Of a DNA stretch of 64,000 bases, positions 4,410 to 62,496 are shown in pieces (positions within the stretch are counted from its first letter, which is position 1; every line of letters starts with the position of its first letter). This DNA comes from Ceratodon purpureus (Eukaryota > Streptophyta > Bryopsida > Pseudoditrichales > Ditrichaceae). The notes below the pieces were generated by a model. It searched no databases. It saw only the letters and a list, made by a program, of their open reading frames with translations, and had not been told where the DNA came from. The stretch covers positions 47,111,611-47,175,610 of the forward strand of contig CM026426.1 in the NCBI GenBank assembly GCA_014871385.1, in the 5' to 3' direction. Made by a program: the position numbers and the translations under genes.

Positions 4410-4489
4410 GGCTTCCTCCTCAACTGTCAGTCCTTCAGTAAAATTACAGCAGACTAGGACTTCAGATAACTTAGGCCTGGGTCCCTTCC

Positions 4490-8856: not shown

Positions 8857-8857
8857 A

Positions 8858-36666: not shown

Positions 36667-38644
36667 ATGGACTGTCTGTATGCCCAAGGCATGGGAATCC
36701 CTTTAAGGTTTCGCATAGATGACGATGGTCTAACTGTGGTATCCTCTCTTTGTTTGAGTCTGAGATTCCATTTCCAAGAGGATACCATCAGTATAGGGGA
36801 GGAGATCTTTGATGAGGTTACTGTCGAGGTTACTCACACCCTCGGGCAACCTTCACTGAGAGATGAGAACAATATGTTGCAGTAGAGACTTTTCCCTGGA
36901 TCCTACAGAGTCTATGGTCTCACTGATTCTCTGATGGCTGCATCCACTGAGATCCTCACTCCCCGTCGCACTTCTACTTGCACAATTCAGACTCCCTTAC
37001 CTCGTGATGTCAAGGTCAAAGTCGAGCCTGGAACCGAGACTTCAGATGTAAAGAAACCTCCTCCTCCGTCCGTCATATCTGTCTCTTTTGATGACAAAGT
37101 CAGTCCCGTCAAGTTGGTGCCTATGGTCCAGGCTAATGCTCCTCCTTCCAATGTGTCTCCTCCATTGTCCCAAGTCATAGTTAGCATAGTTCCGCTCCTT
37201 TAGCAGCTTGCAAAGGCGCGTGGGTGAAAAAACATTTTGAAGAAGATAGACTATTCCACGATTAGACACGAGAGAGTAGAGTACTTGCCTGCAAAGTTTG
37301 ATGGTCCCGTTCTTTTTGAGTTGCCCCCAGCTGCTGCAGGATCCTCTAAGCTCGCCGCCAAGTCAATACAGGGAATGGACAAACGATACGACAGACACTT
37401 GTGGACCAAGACCATCACAACAAACATCAAAAACGACTTGGGACTCTCTTTCCAACGTTTGAGCTGCGTCAGATGGTTGCGCTGCAGCAACAAGGAGTAG
37501 GACTTCCTGAAGCGTGTACCCAAGATCTTCAAGGTTAACAAGACCAAGTTTGAAGGATGTACTCTCCAACCTTTTTGTTTGTTCAAGGCTCCTCCATCCA
37601 ACTCTATGCTAGTTTGCAAGGTATGTAAAGTACCTCCATCATGTGTGGCTACATGCGAGGCTAAGATTTATTACGTAATCGGAGTAGATCATGTATTCAC
37701 ATAGGAACACATGATCACCTAGTGAAAGTTGGAGACTACAGAGACTCTAAAGCAAAGATTAGTAGCTTAATAGAAGAGCAGGTAGAGATGAACAACAAAG
37801 CAACGAAGAGCGCTGTTGTCCTTGAGGCGAGCAAACTCCTCATCGGGAGCTACCTGCTACAGCCTGAGGATGCACCTCCGAGGAAGTTGACGATGGAGGA
37901 GCTGGTTCCTGTCCTGGATCGATGCAAAGACATGGCGTCACCAAACATCCGCAACAAAGTCACGACCTTCAAAATCATTAGAAGGTTTGGTGTCATGGAA
38001 AGTATCACCAAGCTGCGTGGAAACATTCTGTGGGCATTTGTCCAAGAGAATAAGTTCCCTCATCAAGGAGCCATGCGTGACAAAGTCTTCGTCTTTAAGA
38101 TGTCGGAGGTCGGGTCGGGTAGTGGAGTCGATTTGGTCAGTCAAATGCAACTTGGCGGAGATCTGGAGAACTCCTGGATCATGTTCGACCATGTGCGACT
38201 GGTGAAAGAGTGGTCGACGATGGCGTGCCATGTGGACGACGCCACCTCCAGCCGCGTCATGACAATCGCCACTTGCGACATGTAGTTCGAGGATATGGAG
38301 GCCCAACTCGTCTTCTGGTAAAACCTCAACCTTGTTATGGAGAATAATGGCGTTGCAGCGCTAAACTTCAAGGGGTTCATGGCGGACAACGCACAAGTGA
38401 ATTGGAATGCAATGCAATCCTATACAGCAATGGCAACAAAGAGGACTGGGAGAGGTCGTGCTTGCTCTAATGGACACAGAACATGGTCCTGTATACGCAG
38501 AAACACTTCCCCGAAGAACGCTAGAAAGAGCACAAGAAGATGTGCAATCAGTACAAGATTCCGACCAGCATGGCAGAGGCGGACACTCTATATCACGCGT
38601 TGCGAGCATGGTGGGCATACACCGGGGTCGTTGGCGAGAGCGGA
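36667..38644 (+). pseudogene. MULE transposase copy A, N-terminal two thirds
   Basis: Starts at MDCLYAQGMGIPLRFRIDDD, the ATG at 36667 being in a region shared with copy B. Stops are at 36883 (TAG where B has TGG), 37201, 37225, 37498 and 38283. An 11-bp deletion near 37683 shifts the frame. Recognisable blocks: zinc-binding region VCKVCKVPPSCVATCEAKIYY; KSAVVLEASKLLIGSYLLQP; and the DDE region with FKGFMADNAQ. Copy A has ACHVDDATSS where B has ACHVYDATYC. The gene breaks at 38644, exactly at the target site of the inserted LTR, and continues at 59155. Confidence 0.85.
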
Positions 38645-38718
38645 TGTTAACCGGAGACCCAACTAGTCTCTCGCTTTAACCCCATCCAGTCCCCTCTCAA
38701 TTTCGTGCAGGAAGTGTC

Positions 38719-39438: not shown

Positions 39439-39566
39439 TTTATAATTTCATTTTAATTTTTTTATTTTTTTTAATTTTATATGCTAAATGACTTCTGCTC
39501 AACCCTCATCCTTTTCCATTCAGTTTTGGACGATGACCACTTTCAAATGAATGAAAAGCCGATATT
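39331..39566. other. AT-rich interior of MULE B next to hAT insertion
   Basis: Contains a T homopolymer run of about 29 at 39407-39435 and ends with the target sequence CCGATATT (39559-39566). Confidence 0.6.
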
Positions 39567-42500: not shown

Positions 42501-44060
42501 ACGTAAGGTGCACCGCATGAAAAACCAAGTGTGAACATCAATTTATGCGTTGAATTACTTCTAGTGCATTCTCTCCGCGATGTTCCTCTTATCATATCGT
42601 TGTTGACATTAACTCTTTTGATTCGTTATTATAAAATGTTAATTCATTACCGTATGCTAAAACATGAGTAACTTCGTTTCTTTAAATGACAATTGGTAAA
42701 AACTGTTTTAGTGTACCCACAATGTTTACGGTTCTTTCCATTTAATAGGATATATATTCTTCTTCATAAACGTGTTCACATTATTTGTAGATCCTAGGGG
42801 ATTATCCACCCCCAAAGAACCAAAATATCACATAGGTTCATTGGATCCCAATTTCAAACGTCGACCCCACCTCCCCGATCACAGGATCTTCAGGACATTC
42901 TCCACAATATCCGGGATATGTCTGAATTTTCCATTTCTAGGAGATATGATGTCCAAACAATCCCAAGTGGGATTGTTTGGGACAAGAAGGAGGGGGGAGA
43001 GTAGGGGAGGAGAGGGGGAAAGGAGAGGAGAGAAAACACAAGGGGAGGGGAGTTCCTTCGACCCTCCCCCCCCCCGGCCGTCCCCGGGGACGGCCACGGC
43101 CGACCCCGCGTGGACGACCGTCGCCCACGGCCGTCGGATCTTCTCCGACGAGAAGCTCCTACGGCTGCGGACGACGGCCGTCCCTGGGGACGGCCGTGGC
43201 CGACCCCGCGTGGACGGCCTTGGCCGACACCGCGGTCGCAGCCCCCCGACCCCAGGGTCGGCCATGGCCGACCCCGCGGTCGGATGGTCCGTCCACGTGG
43301 ACGGCCGTGGCCGACCCCGCGGTCGGAAGGGCCGTCCGCGTGGACGGCCGTGGCCGACCGCGGGGTGGAGCACAGCCGTCCCCGCGGGGTCGGACAAGGC
43401 CGTCCCCCGCGGGGTGGACAAGGCCGTCCCCCGGGGGGTCGGGTGGCCGTCTCCGCGGTCGGCCCCGTCAACACGCGGTCGCCCACGCGGACGGCCCACC
43501 CAGGCCGACCATGGCTGCCGCGGGCCGTCCGATCCCGAGGCCGTCGCCGTTGCCGACCGCGGGGACGGCCACGGGGACGGCCGCGGGATCAGACGGCCCG
43601 CGGTCGGCCGCGCCGATCGAGCAGTCCCCGATGGCCTGCGCCGGGGTCGATCCGGGCCGTCGGATCCCGTGGCCGTCCCTGAGGCCGTCCCCGCGGTCGG
43701 CCGCGGGGACGGCCGTGGGATGCGACGGCCGAGGAGGGCCGCCCACATCCGACGGCCCGCGATGTGCCAGCACGGCCGCATCTTGGCCGTCGGATCGACG
43801 TGCGGCCGTCCGCAACGACCCCGCGGCCGTCTCCGCGGCCGTCCCCGCGGCCGTCCCCGCGAACGGACGGCCGAGATGAGGCGTGGTGGCGGGATCGGCC
43901 GATCGGACGGCTGGGGAATGTTTTTACCCCTCCGGGGTCGCAAAATCATTACCGCGACGTAATTCTCGAGCGTCGGGGACGCCACGTCCGGGACGGGGGA
44001 CGTCCGGGTCGGACGTCTTGACGTCCGGAGCCTGGTCGGACGTCTATTTGAACAACCCTG
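39567..44060. mobile_element. Non-autonomous hAT-like element
   Basis: Starts CAGGGTTGTCACGG and ends (inverted) CAGGGTTGTTCAAAT, a typical hAT terminus beginning CAGGG. The 8-bp direct repeat CCGATATT lies at 39559-39566 and 44061-44068. In MULE copy A the equivalent site near 61710 reads AATGCCGATTTTCAAACGCG with no insert, i.e. an empty site. Both ends are very GC-rich (39570-40350 and about 42990-44055) with GGACGTCC near the termini and dozens of GACGGCC/GGCCGTC repeats. The centre (40360-42770) is AT-rich. No transposase is visible, so the element is non-autonomous. Confidence 0.88.
39816..39843 (+). repeat. Run of 28 G
   Basis: Uninterrupted G tract inside the GC-rich left end of the hAT-like element, with further G runs nearby (39885-39890, 39927-39930). 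Four or more GGG blocks permit a G-quadruplex. Length is likely unreliable in sequencing. Confidence 0.85.
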
Positions 44061-44170
44061 CCGATATTCAAGGGCGCCAAGCATCTTCTTTAGGGATATT
44101 TATGGAATGTCTCTTCGTCTTTTCTGTTGGTGTTTTCTGAAGCTCTTTTCCGTAGTGCGGGACAGCAGTC

Positions 44171-44623
44171 ATGGAAGACGTCAAATATATTGTTGTTTCA
44201 CTTGCTCACGATGTTTGTGCATTTCAACCATATCTTGAGGTGGAGGACGAAGAAGAGGTGATGGCCAACAGCCAAGGGCGTCCTCTGACAACGGATGTTG
44301 ACGTGCAACCGGATGTAGGAGCTGACCCTCCACGTTCAGAAAATTCGGATGATACCAGAGTGCTGGAGGAGGACGCAGATGTGCCTTTGCAACCTCATGC
44401 ATACTCCAAGGTTGGGAAGATCCCAAGGGAAACCTATTCCAGGGAATCAGTGAATCGGAGGCGGGGAGGTGGGCCATTGCTGAAACGTTCATACCAAGGA
44501 CACTTGCCAAGTGTGGGAACGAAGGTGAACGCAAATGTAGTTCGTCTTGCAGTACAGTCAGCGGCTGGCAGTCCTGCTGATAGTGTAGTGGGCAATCCTA
44601 AACGTATTAGGTTCGAAGATTAG
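44171..44623 (+). CDS. MULE ORF2 (mudrB-position protein), copy B
   Basis: 150-codon intact frame: MEDVKYIVVS, an acidic N-terminal half, then HAYSKVGKIP, RRRGGGPLLKRSYQGHLP and a basic end NPKRIRFED. Copy A has a homologue at 61596-61075 in the same relation to its transposase. The gene runs convergently with the transposase, stop to stop distance 252 bp, which is also about the distance in copy A. In maize MuDR the second gene (mudrB) is likewise convergent with the transposase gene. No sequence similarity to mudrB is claimed. Function unknown; the conserved basic motif suggests nucleic-acid or transposase binding (inference). Confidence 0.65.
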   Translation: MEDVKYIVVSLAHDVCAFQPYLEVEDEEEVMANSQGRPLTTDVDVQPDVGADPPRSENSDDTRVLEEDADVPLQPHAYSKVGKIPRETYSRESVNRRRGGGPLLKRSYQGHLPSVGTKVNANVVRLAVQSAAGSPADSVVGNPKRIRFED

Positions 44624-44874
44624 GACATCTAATAACAAGTATATGTTTGCTGTAATAAAGGGTACATGTCAGAGAATACGAGGTATATAGTGCACTTGTT
44701 CAAGATAGAATGTATTGAAATAGAATGCAATCAATGTGAACGACAAAGCCTTTATAATGAAAATGTCAATACAGCTTCTGTATTGCTGACTTAGTACATG
44801 GGATATTACTAAAATCATTCACTACATGATCAATGGCCAATGTGGAAATGGCAGTTCTAAAGAAGGAGGGCTAG

Positions 44875-47800
44875 CTACTTCTTCGCCAAGGGGTGACGCA
44901 AGATTCCACTCTCTAGGAGTAGCTTGACCTCGTTAAAGCTGAAGGTAGGTGCATGGATGAAAAGTTCGGCTTCGGGATCACGGTTGCAGACCTTCAAAAG
45001 TATGTAGTAAAGGTGCTTACAATACGTGAACTGAGTCCTGCCTCGGAACGTAGTCAACGTGTTCTGGAATGCAGGACAAGTGCAACCAGGGTAAGAACTG
45101 ATGGTAATCTGGTACCGTGTGATGTGTGGAGCGACGCCCGAATCTAGCCCAATGATGCAACCATAGCCCGGCTCAAGTATGATGGTGACGGAACGGAGGC
45201 GCGCTTTGAGAGACTCGGAGGAGCCCATGGACAGTTGCTGCGCCGGATTGGGACGAGTGGCAGTGCGCTTCACCATCTTGCCGTCTCTCTTGCCTGGGTA
45301 GCGGTCTGCGTCTGCAGGGACTGGCACCGAGCTGAGATTTGCATGGGGCAGGGCAGAGGAGAAGAGGCGTCTTGGGGAGACCGGCTTCTACAGCGAAAGT
45401 TGAAAGCCTGCTGCTTCGAGGGCAAGAATCTCAATGAGTTTCAGGTTAGTACCTAGTTTCACTGGCCAGACCTCTGGAATGGAGGGCAATTCCTGGTCCT
45501 TTGAGTAGTGTGCTACCCACTTGCGCTTAGAGCCTTTCACGCAGCGCTCAATATCGTCGGAGCAGAAGAAGAACTCTGTCTTCACGACTATGTTCTTGCG
45601 ATAGTTAGTCCAAAGCCCAGTGTAGGTCGGTCCAGCTGTGCCATGGGGCCCCCTGACGATTCTCCGAGTGCACTTCTTCTTCGTTTTTGCTCTTTGGGCC
45701 CAGCAGCACTTTGCAGAAAGTTTGTGAAGTCTGGAAATGTGCCACTCCTTCACGTCGATCTTCGTTTCTTCAACCGCGTTGACATGGCGTATGCCGCCCT
45801 TGTTCACAGGTGAAGGTAAAGGGGAATCAACTTCCTGGGCAGGAGATTGGGTACCTTGTATCTCGGTGTCGTGTTCAAAAGTCGTCTTCCACAATGACGG
45901 GCATCTGCATAGGGCAAGCCCTGACGGCCCGTCTTGGGCCTCTTGGGCGCGAGAAGTTTGTCTTGTCCGGGCGATGAGATTCCTCGTCAGCTCCGATGGA
46001 GACATCGGCTTTTCGCTTCTGTGAACCGAAGACTTCCGCTCCAGGCATGATAGGCTGACGGGTGCAGAACTCATCCGCGCCAGGCATATCCAGCATGGGC
46101 TTATCGAGCATTGTAGGATTTCCCCATTTCTTCGCGTTGCGTTCAGCCATCCGGAGCCTGAGTTCCTTCTTGGACGGTCCTATTCCGCCGACGTCACCTT
46201 TGAGGAACAGGTAGTAGTTAACAACCTGAAGAAAAGCCCGAACGAAATCGTCCACGGTAGCAACGTAGAGGTCGTTCCCGTTGTTTCCAGAAGCTTGGAG
46301 CCACTTGTTGTGAACTGTTTCGGCGAGGTAACAAGTGGGCATCTTTGTGAGTTCTTCCTCCGTGAATTTCTGCAGTTTAAACAGTAGGTGCCGTTAGATT
46401 CGCCGATTAGAGGTTCGTAGGTTAGGGCTAGGAAACGATTATGAAAAACATCAAAACAAAGTGCAGAGATCATACCTCGGTCATGAATCCCCCCCACTGG
46501 CGGAAGCGGTGGTGCCAGAATGACAGCCACTGATAGAGTTTGATGAGTCCGCTTTCGCCAACGACCCCGGTGGATGCCCACCAGGCTCGCAACGCGTGGT
46601 ACAGAGTTTCCGCTTCTGCCATGCTGGTCGCATTCTTGTACTGAGTGCACATCTTCTTGTGTTGTTCCCAGAGTTCTTCGGGGAAGTGCTTCTGCGTATA
46701 CGCCACCATGATCTGAGTCCAGTGGAACAAGCACGACCTCTCCCGGTCCTCCATTGGCTCCTCTTTGTTGCCATTGCCGTAAAGGATTCGCACTGCATTC
46801 CAATTCTCTTGTGCGTTATCCGCCATGAACCCCTTGAAGTTCGGCGCTGCAACGCCATTGATCTCCATGACCAGGTTCAGGTTTTTCCAGAAGACGAGCT
46901 GGGCCTCCGTGTCCTTGGACTGCATGTCGCAAGTGGCGATTGTCATCACGCGGCAGTAGGTGGCATCGTACACATGGCACGCCATCGTCGACCAGTCTTT
47001 GACACGTTTTACATGGTCGAACATGATCCATGCGTTCTCCAAGTCGCCACCAGCTAGCATTCGGCTGACCAAGTCGACACCACTTCCCGGCCCGACCTCC
47101 GACATCTTGAAGACGAAGACTTTGTCACGCATAGCTCCCTAACCAGGAAACATATTCTCTTGGACATACGCCCAGAGACTGTTTCCACGGAGCTTGGTGA
47201 TACCGTCCATGACTCCGTACCTTCTGTATATTTTGAAGGTCGCGACTTTGTTGTGGATGTTTGGTGACGCCATGTCTTTGCATCGATCCAGGACAGGAAC
47301 CAGCTCCTCCATCGTCAACTTCCTCGGAGGTGCATCCTCAGGCTGTAGCAGGTAGCTCCCGATGAGGAGTTTGCTCGCCTCAAGGACAACGGCGCTCTTC
47401 GTTGCTTTGTTGTTCATCTCTACCTGCTCTTCTATTAAGCTACTAATCTCTGCTTTAGAGTCTCTGTAGTCTCCAACTTTCACTGGATGATCATGTGTTC
47501 CTATGTGAATACAAGCTCTATTCTGATTCGGTTTGCCCACAACGTAATAAATCTTAGCCTCGCATGTAGCTACACATGATGGAGGTTCTTTACATACCTT
47601 ACACACTAGCGTGGAGTCAGATGGAGGAGGCTGATCCATGAGAAAAGCCTGCAGGGTACAGTCTTCGAACTCAGTCTCGATAACCTCGAAGATCTTAGGA
47701 ACACGCTTGAGGAACTCCTCGTTGGTGCAGCGCAGCCATCCGACGCAGGTGGAACTTCGAAAAGAGAGTCCGAAGTCGTTTTTGATGTTTGTTGTGATGG

Positions 47801-48522
47801 TCTTGGTCCACAAGTGTCTGTCGTATCGTTTGTCCATTCCCTGTATTGACTTGGCGGCGAGCTTAGAGGATCCTGCAGCAGCTGGGGGCAACTCAAAAAG
47901 AACGGGACCATCAAACTTTGCAGGCAAGTACTCTACTCTCTCGTGTCTAATCGTGGAATAGTCTATCTTCTTCAAAATGTTTTTTCACCCACGCGCCTTT
48001 GCAAGCTGTTAAAGGAGCGGAACTATGCTAACTATGACTTGGGACAATGGAGGAGACACATTGGAAGGAGGAGCATTAGCCTGGACCATAGGCACCAACT
48101 TGACGGGACTGACTTTGTCATCAAAAGAGACAGATATGACGGACGGAGGAGGAGGTTTCTTTACATCTGAAGTCTCGGTTCCAGGCTCGACTTTGACCTT
48201 GACATCACGAGGTAAGGGAGTCTGAATTGTGCAAGTAGAAGAGCGACGAGGGGTGAGGATCTCAGTGGATGCAGCCATCAGAGAATCAGTAAGACCATAG
48301 ACTCTATAGGATCTATGGAGGAGTCTCCACTGCAACATATTGTTTTCATCTCTCACTGAAGGTTGCCCAAGGGTGTGGGTAACCTCCGCAGTAACGTCAT
48401 CAAAGATCTTCTCCTCTATACTAATGGAATCCTCACGGAAATGGAAATCTGAGACTAAGGCGAAGAGAGGAAACTGTAGCTAGACCATCGTCATCTACGC
48501 GAAACCTAAGAGGGATGCCCAT
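44875..48522 (-). pseudogene. MULE transposase, copy B, nearly complete
   Basis: Order: N-terminal GMGIPLRFRVDDDGL; zinc-binding region CKVCKEPPSC...RACIHIGTHDHPV (about 47620-47470), of the FLYWCH/GCM type seen in many MULE transposases; DDE core with VYDATY (Asp near 46966), FMADNAQENWNAV (Asp near 46819) and CLFHWTQ; and a SWIM zinc finger CTCPAF...YCKHLYY (about 45095-44990). An intron lies at about 46373-46487 (GTATGA...CTGCAG) and is also visible in copy A/C. Defects: stops at 48009 and 47985 (also in copy A), TAG at about 47139 where copy A has CAA, a one-base insertion near 45880, and TAG near 45388. Cuts and moves the element; not intact here. Confidence 0.85.
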
Positions 48523-49189: not shown

Positions 49190-52100
49190 ATGAAGCGGAG
49201 TGGAGGGCCATCTCCCTCTACTTATGTTACTCCGAAACGTAGAAGAAAACCAGGTCGTACAGATTTTACGGATAGAAGAGCTAGGAAGATGAGAGAGTCA
49301 CGTAAGAAGGTAGTATTTAAAAGTGACCACTTGAGTGCTCCCGTGAAAAGGAGAGGTTCAGGTCTGCCTGTTGCTTTGAAGTTTTGTAGCATTCGTAAAC
49401 TCATTCTGGACTCCATAGTGGAGGAGGAGGTAGAGTTTTTAGAGACCACCGTAGTTGGGGATCACGAGCAGGAACAGGAGGTACTCTTAAGTGGAGTTGC
49501 ACGTAAGGCCATGACGGAAGAATTAGTTTTTAATTGTAGTCAACGAGTGGAGTCACCGCAGGCGTCTATCACATTCAATGAATTTTCGACAGGAGAGCCG
49601 GATTCTCAATCAAATCTAGATTTTAACACTCATGAGGTAAGTACTTATAAACCATCTTTATTACTGTGGATTATTTAATTTAATTCAGTATTGTGAAGAG
49701 AAGAAGCGATACTATGTACCGAAGTGAAATAGTTTTAGGAAAATTTGCGAAGGATCAAATTCAACTCACAGAATTGCCTCACAGTTGAAAATTGTTGTAA
49801 ATATGAGCATAGAGTAACAATAGGATAAGGGTAGTCGGAGAGTCAAGTGAGCATCTCATTCTCGTGGCGAGAAGGGCGAGGGAAGGGATTCTCAAGGCTG
49901 GTGAAGGGGGCTTAGCGATGGCGGCACGGGAGGCGGGTGAGCTCGGGCGAGGCGTGGAGGAGGGAGATCTGCCTGGGGGAGGAGGCGCGGCCAACATGGC
50001 TGTGGAGCAGCTCGGGATTGCAGAACTTGCGGGAGTTGGAGAGATCGGGCAGGGTGCTGGAGATGAGAGTGAGCAACCAGAGGGCTCCGAAGGTAGAGAG
50101 GAGGAACCAGTTGAGGAAGACGAGGACGATGACCAGGTTTCTCCATGAACCTGCAGCTAGTGTGTGAAGTTCTTGATGTGACATTGGGTTCTCTTTCAAA
50201 TGTTGGGTTGATTCGATCGTACGGCAATGATTGGGGTGATGGGTGGTACAAATGTACCTGAATTCGGGTTTCGAGATTTGCTGGGATTTCGAGAATGTGT
50301 TTGGTTCATGGGTTAGGTTTGGTGATTAGAGGTTGCGGAATGTAGATTCGAGGTGTGGGAAGTGGGGATTGCGTAAATTGTTGGAGTGGGGGTTTTCTCT
50401 CTGTTGTTGCTGATTGGGCTGCTATGCTTGCATTCTCGCTTGCTCTTTTGTGTTGAGTGTCTTCGGTTTGTGGGATTTCGGTCTGTGCGGATTTGGGTTG
50501 CTTGTGGTAGACATTGCTTTGGATTGGTTTGCTGGTGCTCTGCTTGTCTGCTGGGTGGGAGCTCGAGACAAGCCAGGCCTTATCGGGTCACTCAAAGTAG
50601 TAATCAACTTTGCAGGAGGCAGCGCATTTTTCTATGACCATAATTTCTCGTAGTTCTATTCAGAAATGTAAAGAATCGTTTGTGATTTCTTAACAAGGGT
50701 TTGTTTGACAACCAGTCGCTGTGTGTGCCAAGCTCCGCCTGGTCGGATGTCGAAGTTGTTTATGAGATATTATGTCCAAGCTTTGCTTGATAGCGCTTTC
50801 TCTCATCGCATCAACAGTCAGTTCCTGCTTCGGAAAGCATTGCTTTAGCTTTGAGCTTGTGAGCAGCTACATAAATATCAACTGAAATGTGAATATTATT
50901 GAGATTTTCTTGGTATTTTTTGTTTTTTTTGAAAATTAAAAAACCGGCTACCCTACGTTCTTCACCGAATGTAGGTCCAAGGGGGGGTGAAGGATTCGGG
51001 GATTTGGCTTTTGTTTTTTTTTTTTTTAATTTTTTTGGTTCCAGTTTTTGTGAAGTGAATGCATGGTTGATGAAAGAAATGAATTAAATTGTCATAACTT
51101 TGTGGATTTCAGAGGATTTTCTTGGTATTTGTTGTTTTTTTTGAAAATTAAAAAACCGGCTACCCTACGTTCTTCACCGAATGTAGGTCCGAGGGGGGGT
51201 CTTGGATTTGGGGATTTTGCTTTTGTTTTTTTTTTTTAATTTTTTTGGTTCCAGTTTTTGTGAAGTGAATGCATGGTTGATGAAAGAAATGAATTAAATT
51301 GTCATAACTTTGTGGATTTCAGAGGATTTTCTTGGTATTTGTTGTTTTTTTTGAAAATTAAAAAACCGGCTACCCTACGTTCTTCACCGAATGTAGGTCC
51401 GAGGGGGGGTCTTGGATTTGGGGATTTTGCTTTTGTTTTTTATTTTTATTTTTTTTGGTTCCAGTTTTTCTAAAGTGAATGCATGGTTGATAAAAGAATT
51501 TAATTAAATTGTGAAAACTTTGTGGATTTCAGAATATTTTCTTCGTAGAAGTCTTGATGAGTTTTTATGAGTTTTTAAGGTTTTTTTGGGAGCCTTGTCG
51601 AGGTTGTGGTTTGTTTCTTTATAGTTGTTGTCTTTTCTAATAATTATAACATTGTTTATGATTAAGGACTCTGATGGAGATCATCTGGGGAGCGAACCTC
51701 AAGACCCGACGCCAGCAGAAACTGAGGTATTTCATTCAATTTTCAATTTATATTAATTTCTTCAGTTCATGAATTTCAGTTCTATTCGCCTTGTACCCTT
51801 CATTGTTTCCTACTCTTTTAAATATGGAAGTTAATCCTCACTTCATTTCTTCTACTCTAGGTATCATCCGATGCTCCTGAGATGTCCGCTACTTCCCCCA
51901 TTTCTGTGATCAGTGTTTCCGATCTTTCAGATTCATTTGATCAATACTACTGTACCTGTGATGTAGCCATGCCTATAGGTGTGCAAAGTGGACCTCTCGA
52001 GGTCCACTCTCTACAGTATATGCCTACCTCGCCAGTGTACATGCCTACCTCTCCAGTGTACATGCCTACCTCTCCAGTGTACATGCCTACATCCACGGTG

Positions 52101-55100
52101 TATGAGCCTACCTCCCCGGGCTACATGCCCACGTCTCCTCCACAGGGATCCCCGCCGATGTCTCCACCCTCTCCTTCCTCGCCGATTAGAGTCAGGAGGC
52201 CAGCCCATGTGGTCTTTGCTCTTTCGGCAATTCTGCCGTGCCCTGTCCAACAAACCAGACGATTTTAGAGGAGGCGCCATCACTGGAACTGTAGACAGTC
52301 TAAGGAGTACTATAGTGGATCCTCACGTAGATAGTTTTATCAATCACAGATGATGATTGAGTTGTTAAAAGAGAGATGACAGTATGAAGATATATTGTTA
52401 CTTTCTTTTACATACTTGTCTACTTTGTAAGACTTTCTTTGATTGTGCTTGTTCTCCTAATTTGCGCACCTTCTTGCAGGTTACGCAAACACAAGATGTG
52501 TTGGTGAAACCATCTTGTCCAATAAACTTGAAGACTGCTAGGGAAGGGGAATTGGAACATCGAACCCAACACAAGGTAGACTCCAACGCCGTCATCAACA
52601 AGCTCAGGATCAAGCCATTGCAGAAGTCTCGAATGTCGGTGCCCCTGTGCAGGATGATTCCAATGGCAAAGGTTAGACCACTGGGCGAAGTGGGGGTACA
52701 GCATTTGGAGCGGGAGTTCGTTAAGGGATATAGAGATGGCGACCGCGTCATGTACATTTCTATGTACAACAACGAGGAGCAGACAAGAGATGTTACGGAT
52801 GAGGTCATGGCTAGATGGAGCCCATTATGGAGGGACGCGAATGATGCTTTTGAAATTGAGCTTCAAAGTGACGAGGAGTGGTCGCAGTTCTCTCGGAAGA
52901 TGTTTTTTGTCTGGGAAGGTAACCATCGCCTCTCAGCATGGCTTCGTCATATCAACAAGCACCACGCAGAGGACCCGTTATGGCACATATCTGTGCATTG
53001 CATAGTCCTCGACCCCCGTGGCCATGTTGGCAATCTTCTTCACGCAATGCATGACATCAACTGGTAAGTACTTGTTTCTTTTTTCCTGTTTTTCCATTTG
53101 TTACTTTATCTCATCTCTTTTATTCATCATACGTATTTTGGTTTATTTTCAGGTCGAATGAGAATGACCACGTAAAGAGTAATCTCCCCGCAAAACTATT
53201 TCGAATCCGCTCATTCGGAATGATGAAGCTGGAGGAATTTAAAGACCTCCTCAGTCCTAACGAGTATGACGTTTGTTTGAAGAACAAGCCACCTAATCCC
53301 TCCTGGTTTCCCTTGACAACTAAAGTTTTCATCGCATTTTTGTATCGAGTAAGTCCTACCTCCTCTCTCTATTTGCTTCTTATGACTCAATACTCATGGA
53401 ATTTCCTAACGCTTAATTATCTTCCTACAGCGGGAACTCGCTACGGCCTCCAATGAAGCAGCCAATGCTTACCGCAAGAAGACACCCGAGGATGAGCAGT
53501 CTGCTAGTGCAGTTTGGGATGTCATGAATGAGGCATCAGATAGAATGGTCGAAGCCATCAAGAAGGACTTTGTCAAGTACTTGGTTGTCGCAAATCCCAA
53601 GAATGGTGACGACTTCCTCAATGAGGTGACTTACTGATCATTGTTCAATTCACTATCTCGTATGACTTTAATAATTTCTGTATTGATCCTTTTAAAAACT
53701 TCGGTGCTTCTTGCAGATCAATCGCCATTACAGTCTCAATAATAAGCCTGAGATCTCGCTTGAAAAGCTTCAGAGGATTGTTCCAGCGGCCGTTGAGGCC
53801 AAATACAAGGCTCGTTGGTTGAAGTGGTGGAACTCATCCCCGAGTGCTCGAATGTCTTACAGATTTCTGCCATCTGAATTCAAAGACAACAACCTCGACT
53901 CAGGGTTGAACAAAGCTTCATTCTGGGCTGGGGTAATTTCCATACAAAATCCTTTCCAATTCCTTATTCCTTTATTCTTTTACCGTTAACCTTCTCTGTA
54001 TTTTTTATATATGAGTTTTGTATCACGGTTGGAGGAAGCCGTCATCCATGAAGTCGAAGACATATTCAAAATGGAGAACCTCAACATCAATTGGATGGCA
54101 TTTCCTAATGTCCAACAGCCGAACGATTTTGTCGAGAGTTCACGTATTCTGTTGTGGGACAAGGCCTTTCCTACATTCATTGGAAAAAAGGCTGATAAGC
54201 ACTTTGACAAGAAGTCCAACTTCGCAAAATTCCTTGGAACCACTCAAGTTGTCAAGCGGGTTACTTACCGGTAAGTGAAGTAACTTAATCGCATTTCCAT
54301 TTCATAATTTTCATTGCAATTGTTTCTTATACTTACCTTCTAGATGTCTTCCCAAAGGTACTTCAAGCGAGAGCTTCTTTTAAAGGGGGCCATCAGCGTT
54401 CAGCACCTCCCCAAGTACTTCAAGCTTTGGACGCAGACAACCTCGGACCAGTGTATGTACTCTCCCCAGCAGATAAAAAGGTACAAAGCTGCTCATCTGG
54501 ATGCTGGATGCTGGTATCTTGATTGTATTGGTGGTTTCACTATTGACTCGGAGGCGGACGTCAAGATGCTACACGATGGGGGTGAGGTGGTGGTCGAAGC
54601 TTCCTTGGATGGTGCAGACGAAGACGAAGGACAGGAGGATCAATCTTCTGCTCCTCCACCGAAGAAAGGGAGAGGAAGGCGACTGAAATCTCTCCGTTCT
54701 CAGTCAGAGGCATCACAGCAAACCGGTGCGGCGTCTTCCCAGCCAAAACAGAAAGAACCAGAGCCCTGTCTAGGTAATGTTGTTACGAAGCCTCTTCCAC
54801 TTCTTCGCCGGCTCCTTCCTCGATCAGTGCTTCGGAGATCACCAGAGGTCTCCTTGAGCAGAGGAGGGCCAAGCTATATCCTCAAACAACTTCTTCCGCT
54901 GGAGCTTCGATTTCCACAAATGTTTCCGTCTTCAACTCATCTGTGGATTCCATGTTGCGGCGAAATAAGAGACAGGAGAGAAAAGGTGGCGGCGACCCAG
55001 ATTGGATCAAGACTCAAGACTTCATTCGCAAGGTATGTTCCGATATTTTGACATTTCATGGATTCAGCCACCTCTACTCGCTTTGTAGTTTCTAACTCTG

Positions 55101-56450
55101 CTTTCTTGTTTCCTCCAGTTTGGAGCAGGCCGCGATTACAGAGTTGGGGACTATTGCAAACAAGAGGACCATCTGGGAGTCGACTTGATCATTGCCGACA
55201 TCCCTGAGAATCTTCCTGTCCCATCCGTTTCCGTTCCCCCCACGAGTATTCGGCCTTGGAACTCTCGGCCCAAGGATTATGTGTACGACATCTTCCGTTT
55301 TGCAGATTCATACCTGCAGAGAGATGGTGCCCTCTGCCTCATCTACAACACTTATCAGAACGTGGCTAAGGATATCGAGGAAGAAGCTCAGGGTGGTGAC
55401 TTCGTGCTTTTCAAGGACTGGTGGGGCGTCAATGTACTCGGCCTGACTTCTCCTACGAACCCCGAGAACTTGGTAATTTCCCTAAACATACCCTTCTCTT
55501 TACTCACTGATAACCCTTCCGCTTAATTATACTCACTAGTTTTGCTTGACTGCAGACTATGCGGTTCTAGATTCGCGTGTACGAGCGTAGTGACAGTACT
55601 TTCTCCTTCCAGACGAAGAAATCCCAGTTGATACATGGGGTCCTCAACATTACCGAGAGTGATGCCATTTTCAACTTCACCGATGTGGAATCGCAGCTCA
55701 TGAATGGGGAGGTGCCGTGGAGAGGCCCTAGGGAGAAAGCCCCTGAAATAATGCAGGGCATAATTGAGGAGCTGACGAAGCCCGGCGACATAGTCCTCGA
55801 TTGGAATGCTGGGACATGTAACTATTCATACATATCTCTGCTTAATTATTCCTCTCATTTTTTCCACAGTTTCTCATTTCTTTGTTTCTCTCCGCGTTTC
55901 AGGGGCCTCCATCAAGGCTTGCCAGGCTATTGGTCGTGACATTCTAGCTTTTGAGGAGGACGAAGCCATATTCAACGCCCTTCTCAAACCGTGCATGGCT
56001 AGACCATCAGCCATGGGCCCTCCTAAACATCCAAGGCCGGCAGCAGCAGGCGAAGCGCCTCCAAAGAGAGCAAGACCTGACAAGTGGTGTAAGTCTTCTA
56101 TTCTACGTTCAAATTATCCAAGCATTACTTCTCTTTGCAGCTCTACGTACTCGATCTAACCACAATCGGTTCTCTATTGCAGAGTAGTTTCAGCAACACC
56201 GCCACGTGGGCCAGCAGCAGTGTCCACTCCATCATGGCGTCTTCATTCCAGCCCGATTCAGCCTTTCATACTTCCGGACTACGCAGAGGGCTTAGCACAG
56301 GCGTTTCAATCTGGAGCCCTTACATATGTTCGTAGTCGGGAAACTACTTTTGATCCCAGGGCCCATCTATTCGTCGATGACGAGGCTTTAGAAGGAGATT
56401 CGGAGTCATCGGGTTCTAAGAGTGAAAGTAGCGATTCTAGCATGTTGTGA
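49190..56450 (+). CDS. Long MULE-borne gene: CTD-like heptads, ParB-like box, DNA methyltransferase-like C-terminus
   Basis: About 13 exons can be followed by GT-AG junctions that keep the frame: 49190-49636, 51667-51726, 51861-about 52280, 52480-53063, 53153-53348, 53431-53625, 53717-53932, about 54035-54270, 54358-55032, 55119-55472, 55571-55817, 55903-56088, 56185-56450. Features in order: basic PKRRRK segment; Ser-rich region with six YMPTSPV-like heptads; ParB-like part with MIPMAKVRPLGEV and FFVWEGNHRLSAWLRHI (G-x-x-R box); a helical part; and an N6/N4-methyltransferase-like domain with DLIIADIPEN (position of DPPY), FADSYLQRDGALCLIYNTY, and motif I GDIVLDWNAGTWASIKACQA then GRDILAFEED. 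Frame breaks are likely near 52200 and 54780, so it may be a young pseudogene. AdoMet-dependent DNA methylation is inferred; the DPPY motif is not canonical. Confidence 0.7.
49912..50199 (-). other. Antisense ORF inside intron 1 of long gene
   Basis: 95-codon frame with a hydrophobic segment (LVIVLVFLNWFLLSTFGALW) and ELTRLPCRHR. A homologous frame lies at 34884-35160 in MULE A, also antisense to the long gene. It could be a captured host-gene fragment or a fourth gene of the element. Not recognised. Confidence 0.4.
50903..51534 (+). repeat. Three tandem 210-bp units in intron 1
   Basis: Units start at 50903, 51115 and 51325 (GATTTTCTTGGTATTT) with a period of 210-212 bp; a fourth start decays after 51535. 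Units two and three are nearly identical. Each contains CCGGCTACCCTACGTTCTTC, GAATGTAGGTCC, a G run and a T run, and ends TTTGTGGATTTCAG, which looks like a splice acceptor. Confidence 0.85.
52017..52142 (+). repeat. Six heptads similar to RNA polymerase II CTD
   Basis: In-frame 21-bp repeats encode YMPTSPV three times, then YMPTSTV, YEPTSPG and YMPTSPP, followed by PPMSPPSPSSP. The RNA polymerase II CTD consensus is YSPTSPS. Tyr1, Pro3, Thr4, Ser5 and Pro6 match; position 2 is Met instead of Ser. Confidence 0.85.
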
Positions 56451-57003
56451 GTTTGAAGGAGGCTTCGGTCTATTGTTGTTTTCATTTGATTTAATTGGAG
56501 TTTTATTGCATATTACTTCATCTCCTCTACTGCAAACAACCTAAACTTGTTATGATTCTCATTTCCTGTTTGTATCTGTGCATGTAAAGAATGAAATGTC
56601 ACATCTGTAATGCTCAACATGTACCATGAACAATGAAATGTTTAAACTGAAATGCTCGAAGCTATATTTATTGCTGTAATTACTTTCTTAATCATTCAAA
56701 ATCTCACCCTAAACCGTAGCCATGTTACCTATTCTTGGGAGAGATCCAGATACCATCTCTTGGAGAAATTTTCTCTCCTTCCGGCACATCCAAGACCTCA
56801 TTCCCATTGGCAGATAGCAATGACGTCAATTGATCTAACTCAACGCAACTAAGTTCTCCAAGGGACGCTGTCTCCAACCTCTCGTTGTAAATTGGATTTG
56901 CAAGTTTCCATGAACTCCTAAATACACTCCAGTTGATGTTGAATTGATTAACTTCATATTCGTCTTTCGGACTCCAATGGCGACCCTCGTACGAAAAGTA
57001 ATC
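56451..57003. other. 3' flank of long gene
   Basis: Likely 3' untranslated region and spacer. Contains AATGAAA-type motifs near 56590-56640 but no clear gene. On the minus strand 56850-57003 could be the intron and downstream exon of the F-box-like frame. Confidence 0.4.
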
Positions 57004-57249
57004 TTACCTCGCTAGCCGAAGGCATGCGTATTCAGGACTACTGTCAACCTCACGCTTCCAACTCTTCGACACAGCACGAGCGTTCTCGACATCTTCAAAC
57101 GTAATAACAGTCGTAGAAGTCCAACCCTGGGTTGCACTACTACCTATATGATCCCAGAGGTTAGGCCCATCCGCCATCCGCTTAAGCAAATCCTGTAAAA
57201 CCGTTTCACAGGCAACGACCTCAAATGAATCGCCCATACCTTCAAACAA
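57004..57249 (-). CDS. F-box-like fragment inside MULE B
   Basis: An open frame with VLQDLLKRMADGPNLWDHI and NARAVSKSWKREVDSSPEYA then CLRLA. The spacing of the helix and the ARAVSKSWKREV segment resembles a divergent plant F-box (L...RAVCKRWR). The frame reaches a GTAAGA donor just before its stop, so this is probably one exon. The likely first ATG is at about 57237. Captured host gene or cargo; the substrate-receptor role is inferred only from the motif. Confidence 0.35.
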   Translation of the reverse strand: MFEGMGDSFEVVACETVLQDLLKRMADGPNLWDHIGSSATQGWTSTTVITFEDVENARAVSKSWKREVDSSPEYACLRLAR

Positions 57250-57627
57250 CTCCCTAGCAAGTACACGCTTAAGTTCGACAGAAATGATTGAGCTTATACA
57301 ACTTCAAGGACGTCTGCTAAGGCTTATATAGATTCTTGCTTGACACTTAAGCTACGAATGCTCTTATCTAAAGACGGAGAATTCTTCGACGAAGACAAGC
57401 GGTCTGACTTGGTGTACATCTTGGTTCCTGCTACTCCATTATTGTACACGAACTCTGAAATATTCCACGAACTTTTAAGACCATTTCTTTTTGGTGGTTT
57501 CGAGTTCCCTTATTCCTAGAATTTTCTATATTATCTAAAAACATCATGCTGGAATACTTGTACTTAGATCCAATAAGGGACCAAATGTAAAGGAATGTAT
57601 TCAAACACTCCACTAGTCTTTACAGTA

Positions 57628-57999
57628 CTAATCCTTCGGAGGATATACAGTCCAACTCTTGTCGATATCAAACCAATAGGTTTCGCCATCCGATATGATC
57701 ACTTCGGGCAGCTGAACAACTCGATTCTCATCGATGGTGGATGGCAAGGGATACGGGATTAGGGACAACTCCATAATAAGGAGAAGTTCATTCGTACAAA
57801 GCACTGTCCAACGCCATTCACCTTCACCAACATGGAGGCTTTCGATGTGCCTAAACGGTGGCAGGTCCATGCCTCGTTCCCTGGCGCGCTCCACCTCCAG
57901 GAGCCAGGGCCGCAGCTCCTCATAACTTGCCGGTGCCTTTGGGGGCAAACCTACAGCCGATCTTGTCCTCCTCGAACTTGCATTACGCACCTTCGGCAT
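57628..57999 (-). CDS. Small ORF of unknown function
   Basis: ATG at 57997-57999 (MPKVRNASSRRTRSAVGLPP); 123 codons with LLEVERARERGMDLPPF, a central segment rich in Leu and Ile, and DGETYWFDIDKSW near the end, stop at 57628. Not recognised. Its upstream DNA (about 58275-58365) is similar to the DNA upstream of the F-box-like frame (57390-57480), so the two may be a diverged tandem duplication. Confidence 0.35.
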   Translation of the reverse strand: MPKVRNASSRRTRSAVGLPPKAPASYEELRPWLLEVERARERGMDLPPFRHIESLHVGEGEWRWTVLCTNELLLIMELSLIPYPLPSTIDENRVVQLPEVIISDGETYWFDIDKSWTVYPPKD

Positions 58000-58589
58000 C
58001 GTGCAACACACTAAATTGTTGTAGTCTTAAAACGTTCCACGCAAGCTTGCAGATTGAGCCTCCCGAACTCCTACGCTACCTTCGCATACAGCACAGAATG
58101 CCAAGGACTGTGTCACTATCCAAATACGCCACGTAGAAACAAGCTCAAGAAAACAAGAGTGGCCTCCTTCTGTGGAACCCAGCTTACCAAGTGCTCTTTC
58201 ATGATGAGAAACTCTTACTTGTATCAATCAAATGAAGAAGCTTTGCTGCCTAGGAAGAGAGAGTAATCTTCGATGAAGACAAGGACTCCAACAAGGTATA
58301 TCTTGGTTTCAGCAGTTAAGATATTATACACGAATTTTGAAATATTCCAGGAAGTTTTCAAACCTTGCCTCCTTTATGTTCTGTGAAATTTGTTTTTTTC
58401 CTTGTGCATTTACATAATCCTATGAAAGAATTATTTGTTTGATCTAAAACTCAACGCCTGATCATTGTATCTTACCTAAATCCATGACAAATCTAACAAA
58501 ATATATGCATGACGTCATCATGACATCAGCCCTAATTTGTATCTTAGAGAACAAACGTAACAAATTCTTACCAGATATAACCCAGATTT

Positions 58590-58762: not shown

Positions 58763-59154
58763 GGAAGTGTCCTGATAGTCATCCAGTTCCTGTGGATGAA
58801 CTTTGTCAGTCGGCTTGATAAACTCTGTCGGAGCCGACTGGATGAACTCTGTCGAAGCCGACCGGATGATTCTGTCCGTTTTCAGGGGGTTTAAGAGGCA
58901 CGTATAGGGTTTTGGGAGATCATTCTACACTAAAGCAGGTAGAGTCAGAGTGGTCTGAGAGCTGTTAGGAACTGCTGTACCATGTGTTTGGAGCTATTTT
59001 GACCCATTTTATGCAGTTTTGACCTCTTTTTGCACTTATATTATACATTTCCAGCAACTTATGAGTGTTTGAAGCACTTAGCTTAGTTGGGTTTTTTTGG
59101 GTTTTGATGGGATTGTGAAGGCTAGGGTTTAGTTGGTAAATCCTCCCTTTAACA

Positions 59155-60823
59155 GCGGACTTATTAAACTCGATCAGTGCTTGTCATTCTGGCACTACCG
59201 CTTCCGCCAGTGGGGGGGATTCATGACCACAGTATGATTTCTCGACTCTCTTTTGATTTTATTTGATACTGTTTTACTATCCCTAACCTACAAAACTCCA
59301 ATCGTTGAATTCAACGGCTTTTACTGTCTAAATTGCATAAATTCACGGAAGAAGAACTCACAGAGATGCCGACCTGCAACCTCGCCAAAATAGTTTATAT
59401 CAAGTGGCTTCAAGCTTCAAGATACAACGGTAACGACCTCTACGATGCCACAGTAGACGATTTCGTTCGGGCATTTCTACAAGTTGTTAACTACTACCAG
59501 TCCCTCAAAGGTGACGTTGGAGAAACATGACCAAAGACGAAGGAACTCAAGCTTAGGATAGCGGAACGCAGAGCGAAAAGAACAGGAAATCCTACATTGC
59601 TCGGAGATCCCATGCTCGATATGCCAGGAGCGGAAGAGTTCTGCACCCGTCAGCCTATCATGCATGGAGCGGAAGTGTTTGGATCACAAAAGCAAAAAGT
59701 TGGCGTTCCCATTGGAGCTGAGGAGGAGTATCATTGCTCAGACAAGACAAAATTCTCTCGTCCGAGAGGCCCAGGACGTGCCGTCAAGACTCGCCTCGTC
59801 CAGATGCCCATCATTGTGGAAGGCAACTCCGAACATGACACTGAGGTATAAGGTATCCAATCTACTGCCTAGGAACTTGAATCCCCCTTACCTTCACGTG
59901 TGAACAAAGCTAGCATTCGCTATGTCAATGCAGTTGAAGAAACCAAGGTCGATGTGAGGGAGTGGCACATTTCGAGACTTCACAAAGCTTCTGCGAAGTG
60001 CTGTTGGGCCCAAAGAGCTGTTACGAAAAAGAAGTGCACTGAGAGAATTGTCAAGGGGCCCAATTGCAGTGCTGCATCGACCTACACCAAGGTTTGAACT
60101 AACGTTTACACAAACACAGCTGAGAGGACGGAGTTCTTCTTCTGCTCCGATAATATTGAGCGCTATGTGAAAGGCACAAGGCGCAAGTGGGTAGCACACT
60201 ACTCGAAGTTCCAGGAAGTGCCCTATATTCCAGAGGTCTGGCCAGTGAAATTAGGTACTAACCTGAAACTCACTGAGATTCTTGCACTCGAAGCAGGAGG
60301 GTTTCAACTTCCGCAGAAGAAGCCGGTCTCCTCAAGACGCCTCTTCTCCTCTGCCCGCCTCCTGCAAACCTCCGTTCGGTGTCAGTTCCTGCATAAGCTA
60401 CCCTAGTAGGAGAGATGGTAAGTTGGTCAAATGCACTGCAACTTGCCCCAACTCGGCGCAGCGACTCTCCATGGGCTCCTCGGAGTCTCTCAAAGCGCGC
60501 CTCCGTTCCGTCACTATGATACCTCACCCGGGCCATGGTTGCATCATTGGGCTAGATTCGAGTGTTGCTCTGCACATCACACTGTACCAGATTACCATCA
60601 GTTCTTACCCTGGTTGCACTTGCCCAGCATTCAAGAAAACAATGACTACTTTCCGAGGCAGGATTCAGTTCACGTACTGCAAGCACATGTACTACATACC
60701 ATTGAAGGTCTGCATCCTTGATCTGAAGCCGAGCTTTTCATCCATGCAACTACCTTTAGCTTCAACGAGGTCAAGCTACTCCTAGAGAGTGGAATCTTGC
60801 GTCACGCCTTGGCGAAGAAGTAG
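59155..60823 (+). pseudogene. MULE transposase copy A, C-terminal part
   Basis: Continues the gene broken at 38644: LIKLDQCLSFWHYRFRQWGG, then an intron (about 59230-59333), KFTEEELTEMPTCNLA, RPRGPGRAV, WHISRLHKASAKCCWAQRA, FCSDNIERYVKGTRRKWVAH and the SWIM finger CTCPAF...YCKHMYY near 60616-60690. The stop at 60821-60823 aligns with that of copy B. TGA at about 59529 and several frame changes show decay. 252 bp separate its stop from that of ORF2. Confidence 0.85.
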
Positions 60824-61074
60824 GTAGCACTCCTTCTTTAGAACTGCCATTTCCACAATGGCCATTGATCACATAGTGAATGATTTTATTAATATACCAT
60901 GTACTAGGTCAGCAATACAGAAGTTGTATTGACTTTTTCATTATAAAGGCTTTGTCGTTCACATTGATTGCATTCTATTTCAATACATTCTATCTTGAAA
61001 TTGTGCACCATATACCTCATATCTCCTGACATGTACCCTTAATTACAACCAATATATACTTGTTATTAGATATC

Positions 61075-61596
61075 CTAATCTTTGAACCTAACACGTTTAG
61101 GTTTGCCCACTACACTATCAGCAGGACCGCCTACCTCTGACTGTACTACAAGACAAAGTACATTTATATTCACTTTTGGTCCCACAGTTGGCAAGTGTCC
61201 TTGGTATGAACGTTTCAACAATGGCCCACCTCCCCGCCTCCAATTCACTGATTCCCTGGAATAGAGTCTCGTTGGGATCTTTCCAACCTTGGAGTATGCA
61301 TGAGGTTGCAAAGGCACATCTGCGTCCTCCTCCAGCACTATGATCTCATTCGAACTTACTGAAGGTGGAAGGTCAACAGTCACATCCGATTGTTCATCCA
61401 CAATCGATTGTTCATCCACAATCGATTGTTCATCCACAATCAATTTTTCATCCACAATCGATTGTTCATCCACATCCATTGTCAAAGGACGCCCTTGGCT
61501 GTTGGCCATCACCTCCTCCTCCTCGACCTCAACACATGGTTGAAATGGGCCAACATCGTCAGCGAGGGAAACAACAATATCTCTGACGTCTTCCAC
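61075..61596 (-). pseudogene. MULE ORF2, copy A
   Basis: 173-codon frame homologous to 44171-44623. The start ATG of copy B is GTG here (61594-61596), so initiation is probably lost. It carries an expansion of five near-identical hexapeptides (SIVDEQ) absent in copy B. The C-terminal half (HAYSKVGKIPT, RRGGGPLLKRSYQGHLP, KPKRVRFKD) is well conserved. Confidence 0.7.
61384..61474 (+). repeat. 18-bp minisatellite in ORF2 copy A
   Basis: Five tandem copies of about CGATTGTTCATCCACAAT. They are in frame and encode the SIVDEQ repeats on the minus strand. Confidence 0.9.
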
Positions 61597-61699
61597 AACC
61601 GCTATCCGCCACTACGGAAAAGAGCTTTACAAAACACCAACACAAAAGAGGAAGAGACATTCCATAATCTTAACTTAGATATATCTGAAGAAGATGCTT

Positions 61700-62496
61700 G
61701 GCGCGTTTGAAAATCGGCATTTCCTTCATTTAAAAGTTGTCACTCTAAACCCTAAACTTAATGAAAAGTAAGAGGGTTGTGCATAAATCATTTAGCATTT
61801 AAAAATTTTAAAAAAAAATAAATAAATAAAAAAAAATGAAAAAATGAAAAAATGAAAAAAAAATAAACGCAAAAAAAAAATATGAAGGTTGAAAATAATA
61901 TGAAAGAGATTAAGAAAATGAAAGAGAAAATTAAATGAAAGACTCTTTCGACCCCATTAACAAGATAGATAGAATAGAGGAAGTTAATAAAAAAAAATAC
62001 AAGATAATTATAATTAAAATTAAATAAAAAAAAAAAGATTAAAGGCACGTAGACTAGAATGGATGAATTCTAGTAATGATGAGAAAATGTTACGATATTA
62101 AAGGTTACTTGGTCCCTCTTAAGAGGTTCAATACCAATACATTTTAAGCAGTAATTTGCATATAAATGTGAGGGGATAAGGGGAATGAATGTATGCCTGA
62201 ACTAGTTAGAGGGAGTTTGAGCATAGTAATTAATGCGCGTCAAAAAATTAATCACCAAGAAAAGAGAAAACAAATTACAAATTCAATGAAAACAGTGTAA
62301 TTAGTCCACGGTTATAGGGTCAATTAAATTACTAAAATAAGATTATTTCTAAAAATATACGAAGAATATTCGAATCTTCTAATTTTGTATTTTATATTTA
62401 GTAAAAAATCTATTTTTAGTTTCAATCCCCCATTTTGTGCTCTCTGCTCTCCAAATCTCCGCTCACCGCTCTCTGCTCACGTACAAGCTACCCCCA
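61700..62496. repeat. Right terminal inverted repeat of MULE A
   Basis: Reverse complement of the left end of MULE B over about 600 bp; the terminal part (62400-62496) has the GCTCTCTGCTC/CCGCTCACCGCTC tandem motifs and ends GTACAAGCTACCCCC. Contains the empty hAT site near 61710. No duplication of flanking DNA can be tested because the left end of the element is gone. Confidence 0.8.

Follow-up and report, generated by a model that had tools for sequence, protein, structure and literature searches.

The 64,000-nucleotide stretch of Ceratodon purpureus DNA analysed here (the window; C6:47111611–47175610, in a genome of 362 Mb and 151 contigs) lies on C6, a sequence of 110.5 Mb that we take to be the Ceratodon sex chromosome, and contains a nest of mobile elements, in which an older transposon copy (copy B) is split by a piece resembling a solo long terminal repeat (LTR), itself split by a second transposon copy (copy A) of the Mutator-like element (MULE) kind. 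The subject of this analysis is the second gene of this high-copy, MULE-like DNA transposon, a multi-exon gene on the plus strand that lies wholly within copy A and is oriented divergently from the transposase gene (Table 1). The encoded protein comprises a basic N-terminus, heptads similar to those of the RNA polymerase II C-terminal domain (CTD), a GNHR-box domain, a middle part of about 500 amino acids and a C-terminal fold of the beta-class methyltransferases; a tandem array with one 24-bp palindrome per unit follows the acidic exon and precedes the heptad exon. All exons are presumed to belong to one transcript.

A sequence-only reading of the window had described a 13-exon gene inside a MULE with a 9-bp target duplication. 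The inverted ends and a perfectly matching 9-bp repeat flanking the element were found, with limits far beyond the span of that reading, whereas no MULE profile matches the transposase. Target-site duplications of MULEs are 8–11 bp long, usually 9. The duplication length and the terminal inverted repeats (TIRs) of copy A are those of a MULE and the label ‘MULE-like’ is used because the profile match is missing and the D...D, CxxH and SWIM-like motifs of the transposase were recognised by eye only. A CxC...CxH zinc-finger-like stretch is present in the transposase open reading frame (ORF) 44878–45387, and an intact transposase relative (P0003) is 92% identical to the window transposase.

The multi-exon structure is borne out by exon borders that appear splice-compatible in most of the nine aligned gene copies, with several sites changed; the join of exons 9 and 10 is uncertain, and the window copy is probably frame-broken there. 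Exon 1 has the predicted counterpart in copy B (35407–35841, 54% amino acid identity, E 6e-37), in the same place divergent from the B transposase. The homology in copy B extends to 34515 at 60% identity and then ends; none of the exons after the exon 1 region was found in copy B. The YMPTSPV heptads, close to the RNA polymerase II CTD heptad, occur in all 11 copies compared (the window copy and ten others, see below), with 3–6 per copy by the search expression used.

Table 1. The second gene, its array and the transposon copies in the window.
Feature	Position	Strand	Remarks
Exon 1	49190–49636	+	Basic, PKRRRKPGR stretch; also in copy B
Acidic exon	49845–50145	+	Tentative; shared in part with copy B
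Tandem array	50903–51547	+	Non-coding, three units of ~210 bp; presumed intronic
Palindrome unit 1	50952–50975		Degenerate in window copy
Palindrome unit 2	51164–51187
Palindrome unit 3	51374–51397
Heptad exon	51861–52265	+	Open frame with YMPTSPV heptads; splice to next exon uncertain
GNHR-box exon	52480–53064	+	195 amino acids; ‘ParB’ exon of the sequence-only reading
Exon 5	53154–53348	+
Exon 6	53431–53625	+
Exon 7	53718–53932	+
Exon 8	54032–54271	+
Exon 9	54356–54774	+	Join to exon 10 uncertain
Exon 10	54784–55032	+	Join to exon 9 uncertain
Exon 11	55120–55472	+	N-half of methyltransferase fold; DIPENL at the place of DPPY
Exon 12	55571–55817	+	PWRGxREK...LDWNAGT, AdoMet motif I region
Exon 13	55904–56088	+	End of methyltransferase fold, GRDILAFEED
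Last exon	56184–56450	+
Transposase gene	44100–48479	-	Approximate limits; frame-broken in window copy
Copy A, whole MULE-like element	38719–58762		Inverted ends ~GTAGCTTGTACGTGAGCGGAGAGCG / matching right end; ends common to other genomic copies
Left target-site duplication	38710–38718		GGAAGTGTC
Right target-site duplication	58763–58771		GGAAGTGTC
GC-rich block inserted in copy A	~39572–44059		c3, c5, c7, c8 and c10 join 39571 directly to 44060
Copy B (older), left part	34515–38644	-	Transposase, exon 1 and upstream sequence
Copy B, right part	59154–62494	-	Parted from left part by nested insertions

Membership of the gene in the transposon family

Searches of the genome with the GNHR exon (window 52480–53080) and with methylase exon 11 yielded 777 and 740 candidates, respectively; among the 40 of each that were scored, the window copy included, identity is 94–100% for the GNHR exon and 91–100% for exon 11. 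Of the 40 GNHR matches, 23 are on C6, which is more than expected from the 30% of the genome that C6 makes up (p 0.0004), but the list is biased to relatives of a C6 copy. The first ten copies of this list after the window copy (c1–c10), chosen by their similarity to it, were fetched with 20 kb around each.

Transposase sequence is present upstream of the gene in eight of these ten copies, with identities to the window transposase of 89–94% in c1, c3, c5, c7 and c10 and 69–71% in c4 and c6, and with the distal part only in c8; c9 retains the left end without a transposase, and c2 also lacks one. Both ends and a direct repeat of 9–10 bp are found in six of the 11 copies (window, c3, c4, c7, c8 and c9). 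The duplications are 9 bp long in c3, c7, c8 and c9 (AGACTATTG, CCCAGACGC, TGGGGGAGA and GTAGCGGAA) and 9–10 bp in c4 (GGTGTTTCT(C)), whereas c1, c2 and c5 have the right end only, and c6 and c10 have neither. Every one of the ten fetched copies lies close to transposase sequence, to a transposon end or to both; no gene copy apart from transposon sequence was encountered in this sample, which was picked by likeness to the window copy. The gene belongs regularly to this transposon family and is not a chance capture, as had been proposed from the exon shared with copy B.

In c4 (L017–L018) and c6 (L021–L022), the gene is about 88% identical to that of the window, and the adjoining transposase only about 70%; by this comparison, the transposase and the second gene seem to have been exchanged between subfamilies. 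In c2 (L013/L014), the gene occurs twice in tandem, each time with a right transposon end, behind an array of 14 palindrome units.

A methyltransferase fold with a replaced catalytic motif

The profile search of the exons for a methylase was positive: the last exons match the Pfam family PF01555 (E 3.1e-6), just above the cut-off with the domain alone and just below it with the long query. In a phmmer search, the 241-amino acid domain matches DpnA (1.2e-5, over residues 17–227) and CcrM (3.8e-3, over residues 21–221), and the position of motif IV comes first and motif I (LDWNAGT...) after it. The structural model of a relative (P0164; mean pLDDT 53, with 68–86 for residues 11–90) has CcrM as the top match (E 9.6e-4, with a TM-score of only 0.37), followed by MTA1, METTL3 and M1.HpyAVI; a profile of the N-half only, run against the PDB, found no methylase. 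Judged by these similarities, the C-terminal part has the fold of the N6/N4 (beta-class) methyltransferases. For the search of further relatives, a 958-amino acid query gave no match at E 0.01 among the 7,988 candidates scored, in a collection that apparently consists of open frames of single exons; with a short composite query, 44 relatives were then found among 61 candidates.

The methylase signature reported earlier stands as to the fold and the order of motifs, not as to the catalytic residues. In place of [DNS]PP[YFW], the aligned sequences carry DxPENL (in the DpnA alignment, ADIPENLPV is opposite TDPPYNISV), which all 15 aligned relatives share without exception (33–79% identical to P0164) and 21 of the 24 genomic copies keep. 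Because of this conservation, the motif is not explained by the decay of one copy; the catalytic DPPY is, on the alignment, replaced by a different, conserved motif. Motif I of the S-adenosylmethionine (AdoMet) region reads DW[HQ]CGVG in P0164 and P0166, and GxG is predicted in 17 of the 24 copies, the window copy being among the seven that differ.

The fold, the order of motifs and the constrained AdoMet region would all suit a catalytically active DNA amino-methyltransferase, which would protect or license the element by placing N6-methyladenine or N4-methylcytosine on it, and for which the palindrome of the array could be the methylation site. The DxPENL of all 15 relatives stands against such an enzyme: with DPPY replaced by this conserved motif, ordinary adenine or N4-cytosine methylation is doubtful, the suggestion of the sequence-only reading that the enzyme may mark DNA is weakened, and we consider this explanation unlikely. 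METTL14, an inactive partner, likewise has a changed motif. The protein is like DpnA/M1.HpyAVI, CcrM and PF01555 in the fold, the order of motifs and the AdoMet region, and differs from the beta-class N6A/N4C methyltransferases in the conserved DxPENL, the long N-terminal part and the location in a eukaryotic transposon. An active DxPENL site would form an uncommon class of active site within the amino-methyltransferases; an inactive one would make the protein a conserved transposon-borne pseudoenzyme.

The GNHR box

The GNHRLSA box, which had been likened to ParB, is present and conserved, with GNH invariant in an alignment of 30 rows (29 relatives). ParB itself was not recovered for the GNHR exon by Pfam, NCBIfam or a PDB profile, by Foldseek with a model of the exon too poor to judge by (pLDDT 44), or by tblastn of a GNHR relative against phage and plasmid sequences, which gave six weak plasmid matches (E 3–9). 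The HH alignment to a small profile from four PDB ParB domains was negative, with a probability of 0.1, no better than that of two control profiles, and its best, non-significant segment sets GNHRLSA on GERRFRA. The predicted order of helices and strands in the exon would fit ParB. The ParB-like label goes back to a short motif only and is unsupported by any of the searches. In addition, no match was confirmed when viral contigs were scanned with the transposase and the GNHR exon.

These results bear on the origin of the gene as a bacterial or phage ParB–methylase fusion taken up whole by the transposon. The order of the GNHR box and the methylase is the one predicted for a Wolbachia phage methyltransferase (in the part of PMC3089641 that treats it), and the phage met genes would thus have the same arrangement of domains, provided that the GNHR box is ParB; unlike them, the moss gene has a ParB part that is only putative, a long middle and introns. 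The failure of all searches to find ParB similarity (with bacterial genomes outside the search), the approximately 500 amino acids between the GNHR and methylase parts, and the identity of only 22–41% to phage methylases (20 of the 42 matches listed) speak against uptake of a ready-made fusion, to which we assign a low probability.

Purifying selection and exchange of cassettes

The ratios of nonsynonymous to synonymous substitution (dN/dS) were obtained between copies with the Nei–Gojobori method, with dead copies counted in and pairs that are not independent. For the GNHR exon (leaving out L038 and L040, where it is absent, and c6, which has a deletion there), the three groups have internal dN/dS values of 0.13, 0.25 and 0.34, and the comparison of group 1 with group 3 gives 0.19. 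Exon 11 has values of 0.70 for type 1, 0.36 for type 2 and 0.47 between the types; exons 6 and 9 have 0.24, exons 12 and 13 of type 1 0.36 and 0.39, respectively, and exon 1 a mean of 0.41 (21 copy pairs). Owing to saturated dS, there is no ratio for GNHR groups 1–2 and 2–3 and for exons 5, 7, 8 and 14. Most testable exons are under purifying selection. The open frame is kept in 15 of the 24 copies for the GNHR exon and in 19 of the 24 for exon 11. By these ratios and counts, selection preserves the protein even though many individual copies are decaying.

Exons 10–13 come in two cassettes, which are 67–70% identical at exon 11, on backgrounds that are 93–96% identical in exon 4. Such divergent versions of exon 11 joined to similar versions of exon 4 show that subfamilies exchange the methylase end.

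The palindromic array

The palindrome is present in all 11 copies, 1–14 times in each, clustered at the array, and is absent from five two-base-block shuffles of the same sequences; in the window alone, three palindromes are observed, compared with none in dinucleotide shuffles. A strict form of the pattern is found in 11 of 47 loci, which overlap and many of which do not span the array. The spacing of the units is regular (209–215 bp in 36 of 38 cases, with the median of 211 bp).

The palindrome occurs in two forms, CCTACTGTCGT-NN-ACGACAGTAGG in c2, c4, c5, c7, c8 and c10, and CCTAC[AG]TTCGT-NN-[AC]CGAATGTAGG in c3, c6 and c9, with c1 off by one base, the window copy degenerate and single units varying. 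Between units of c9 and c5, the flanks are 96.3% identical (180/187) and the palindrome differs at four of the 24 positions, which make up two compensating pairs. Conservation is higher in the 24-bp core than in the remainder of the unit (0.87 vs 0.68, with one unit per copy), and the arms are perfect in units of c2, c5, c7, c8, c9 and c10. Because of the compensating changes in both arms and the conserved core, the array points to a dyad that is recognised as such; matching arms would equally be maintained by template-switch correction or by a hairpin in the RNA.

The array could, indeed, consist of RNA hairpins or template-switch products, with the role of the protein unrelated to it. The presumed intronic position and a G.T at one palindrome position in the window, c1, c3 and c6 would suit this possibility, whereas the perfect arms in six copies, the regular 211-bp spacing and the greater conservation of the core speak against it, without being decisive; we consider it improbable.

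Likely role of the protein and relation to known systems

The plan of the gene recalls VANC, an anti-silencing accessory gene of the Arabidopsis VANDAL elements. In PMC5735166, VANC is described as binding a short motif, tandem repeats of which have accumulated at sites that include the VANC21 and VANB21 introns, and as inducing a family-wide loss of DNA methylation; the target repeats vary in number and their units evolve together, and the VANC proteins have some regions that are conserved and others that vary, along with tandem peptide motifs. The VANDAL/VANC system and the moss element have in common an extra gene in a MULE-type element, non-coding tandem repeats in introns (presumed introns in the moss element) that vary in number and diverge together, and a protein that is partly conserved, partly variable and bears tandem peptide motifs (PMC5735166, PMC6446971, in the sections concerned). 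In contrast to VANC, the moss protein has a methyltransferase fold, a GNHR box and a palindromic target candidate, and the likeness is one of architecture, between parts that are apparently unrelated; moreover, VANDAL elements are described as non-TIR in the passages on them (PMC6446971, PMC13317346), whereas TIRs are present here.

Because of this shared plan (second gene, arrays of a short motif under concerted evolution, conserved domain, peptide heptads and exchangeable cassette), the most likely role, with a probability that we put slightly below even, is that of a VANC-like, family-specific anti-silencing or regulatory protein on a methyltransferase fold, which would read the repeats of its own family. 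The protein would act in trans as an accessory factor and recognise the palindromic array, thereby keeping family members expressed or mobile, with the methyltransferase fold serving AdoMet binding, nucleic-acid binding or a non-standard modification instead of ordinary N6A/N4C methylation. The earlier idea of a gene product that licenses or silences lives on in a changed form, as a sequence-specific accessory protein with the palindromic array as a possible target.

Several observations weigh against the VANC-like role. The protein is only a putative binder of the palindromes, for which the transposase or a host factor are alternatives; the G.T position of four copies would equally fit a hairpin in the RNA, and matched arms can arise through template-switch correction in the absence of selection. 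The proposal that the palindrome form tracks the methylase cassette is unsupported, with no significant link between the two (3:1 vs 1:3, n=8, Fisher p 0.49). Exon 11 of type 1 is weakly constrained (dN/dS of 0.70, and 1.01 in the first four type 1 copies). Finally, no Pfam MULE match was found for the window transposase pieces or eight relatives, so that MULE identity rests on the duplication length, the ends and the motifs seen by eye.

A factor in transposition itself (integration, end binding or partnership with the transposase), like mudrB of MuDR, would explain a second ORF divergent from the transposase in a MULE-like element, and has mudrB and mutB as precedents (in the overview given in PMC6446971). 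A protein of this kind, with the active base methylase one of the two main rivals of the VANC-like role, is unlikely, given that the palindromes are found only in the internal array, with none at the ends, and that pairing is loose, the gene in c4 and c6 being beside a transposase only about 70% identical to that of the window. There is also a rather small chance of a partition-like self-recognition system, in which a GNHR protein with a DxPENL active site of new chemistry would read the palindromic array in its own intron, and cassettes and palindromes would diversify by exchange between subfamilies, each subfamily marking itself.

Transposons with proteins of DNA-modifying families are known, namely, those with C5-methyltransferases (DNMT retrotransposons; PMC5890265) and those with TET/JBP dioxygenases (PMC12730594), and so are MULEs with extra ORFs (mudrB, mutB, vanB and vanC; PMC6446971), as described in the portions of these papers on such elements. 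The moss element resembles the former in carrying a protein of a DNA-modifying family; theirs are C5-cytosine methyltransferases or dioxygenases, whereas here an amino-methyltransferase fold resides in a MULE-like element. None of the literature matches listed concerns a eukaryotic transposon that carries an amino-methyltransferase or ParB gene, with the subscription literature mostly, and Repbase, outside their scope, and the main text of a plant gene-capture review (PMC13317346) contains neither the word methyltransferase nor ParB. The gene is the second gene of a MULE-like element, in a variant that the searches described here did not turn up. Should the accessory role be correct, the protein would be an independent answer, built on a methyltransferase fold, to the problem solved by VANC, that is, recognition of its own family and escape from silencing. 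The many similar copies, the candidate target site and the natural variants make this role directly testable.

Other features of the window

The solo-LTR-like piece (38645...59154) has TG...CA ends and 5-bp repeats GCGGA. The outermost TGTTAA ends were rejected as the limits of the transposon, being part of this piece, with its GCGGA repeats around the element. A 10-mer repeat is not trusted as the target duplication of copy B, there being no adjoining inverted end. The Lanisha DNA transposons of mosses are associated with Ceratodon. Lanisha is like the element described here in being a cut-and-paste DNA transposon, and differs in being EnSpm-like. It was rejected as the family of the element on the duplication length, which is 2–5 bp in the Lanisha clade (PMC12730594), compared with 9 bp here.

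Within copy A, the GC-rich block (here taken as 39475–44059) contains repeats of the CGGCCGTCCCCGCGG kind and is open in several frames, and a similar piece is located near the element in c1. The open frames 56728–58026 on the minus strand might represent a further cargo gene, with a weak F-box match (E 0.087) below the cut-off; c1 and c3 have this stretch in full, and c5, c7 and c9 have shortened versions.

Outside copy A, two long copies (2117–9477 and 17825–25068), 71–83% identical across the aligned pieces and about 15.5 kb apart, hold coding pieces of the Ty3/gypsy type, as recognised by eye. A tandem array of about ten copies of a unit of ~202 bp (32315–34500) adjoins the broken end of copy B.

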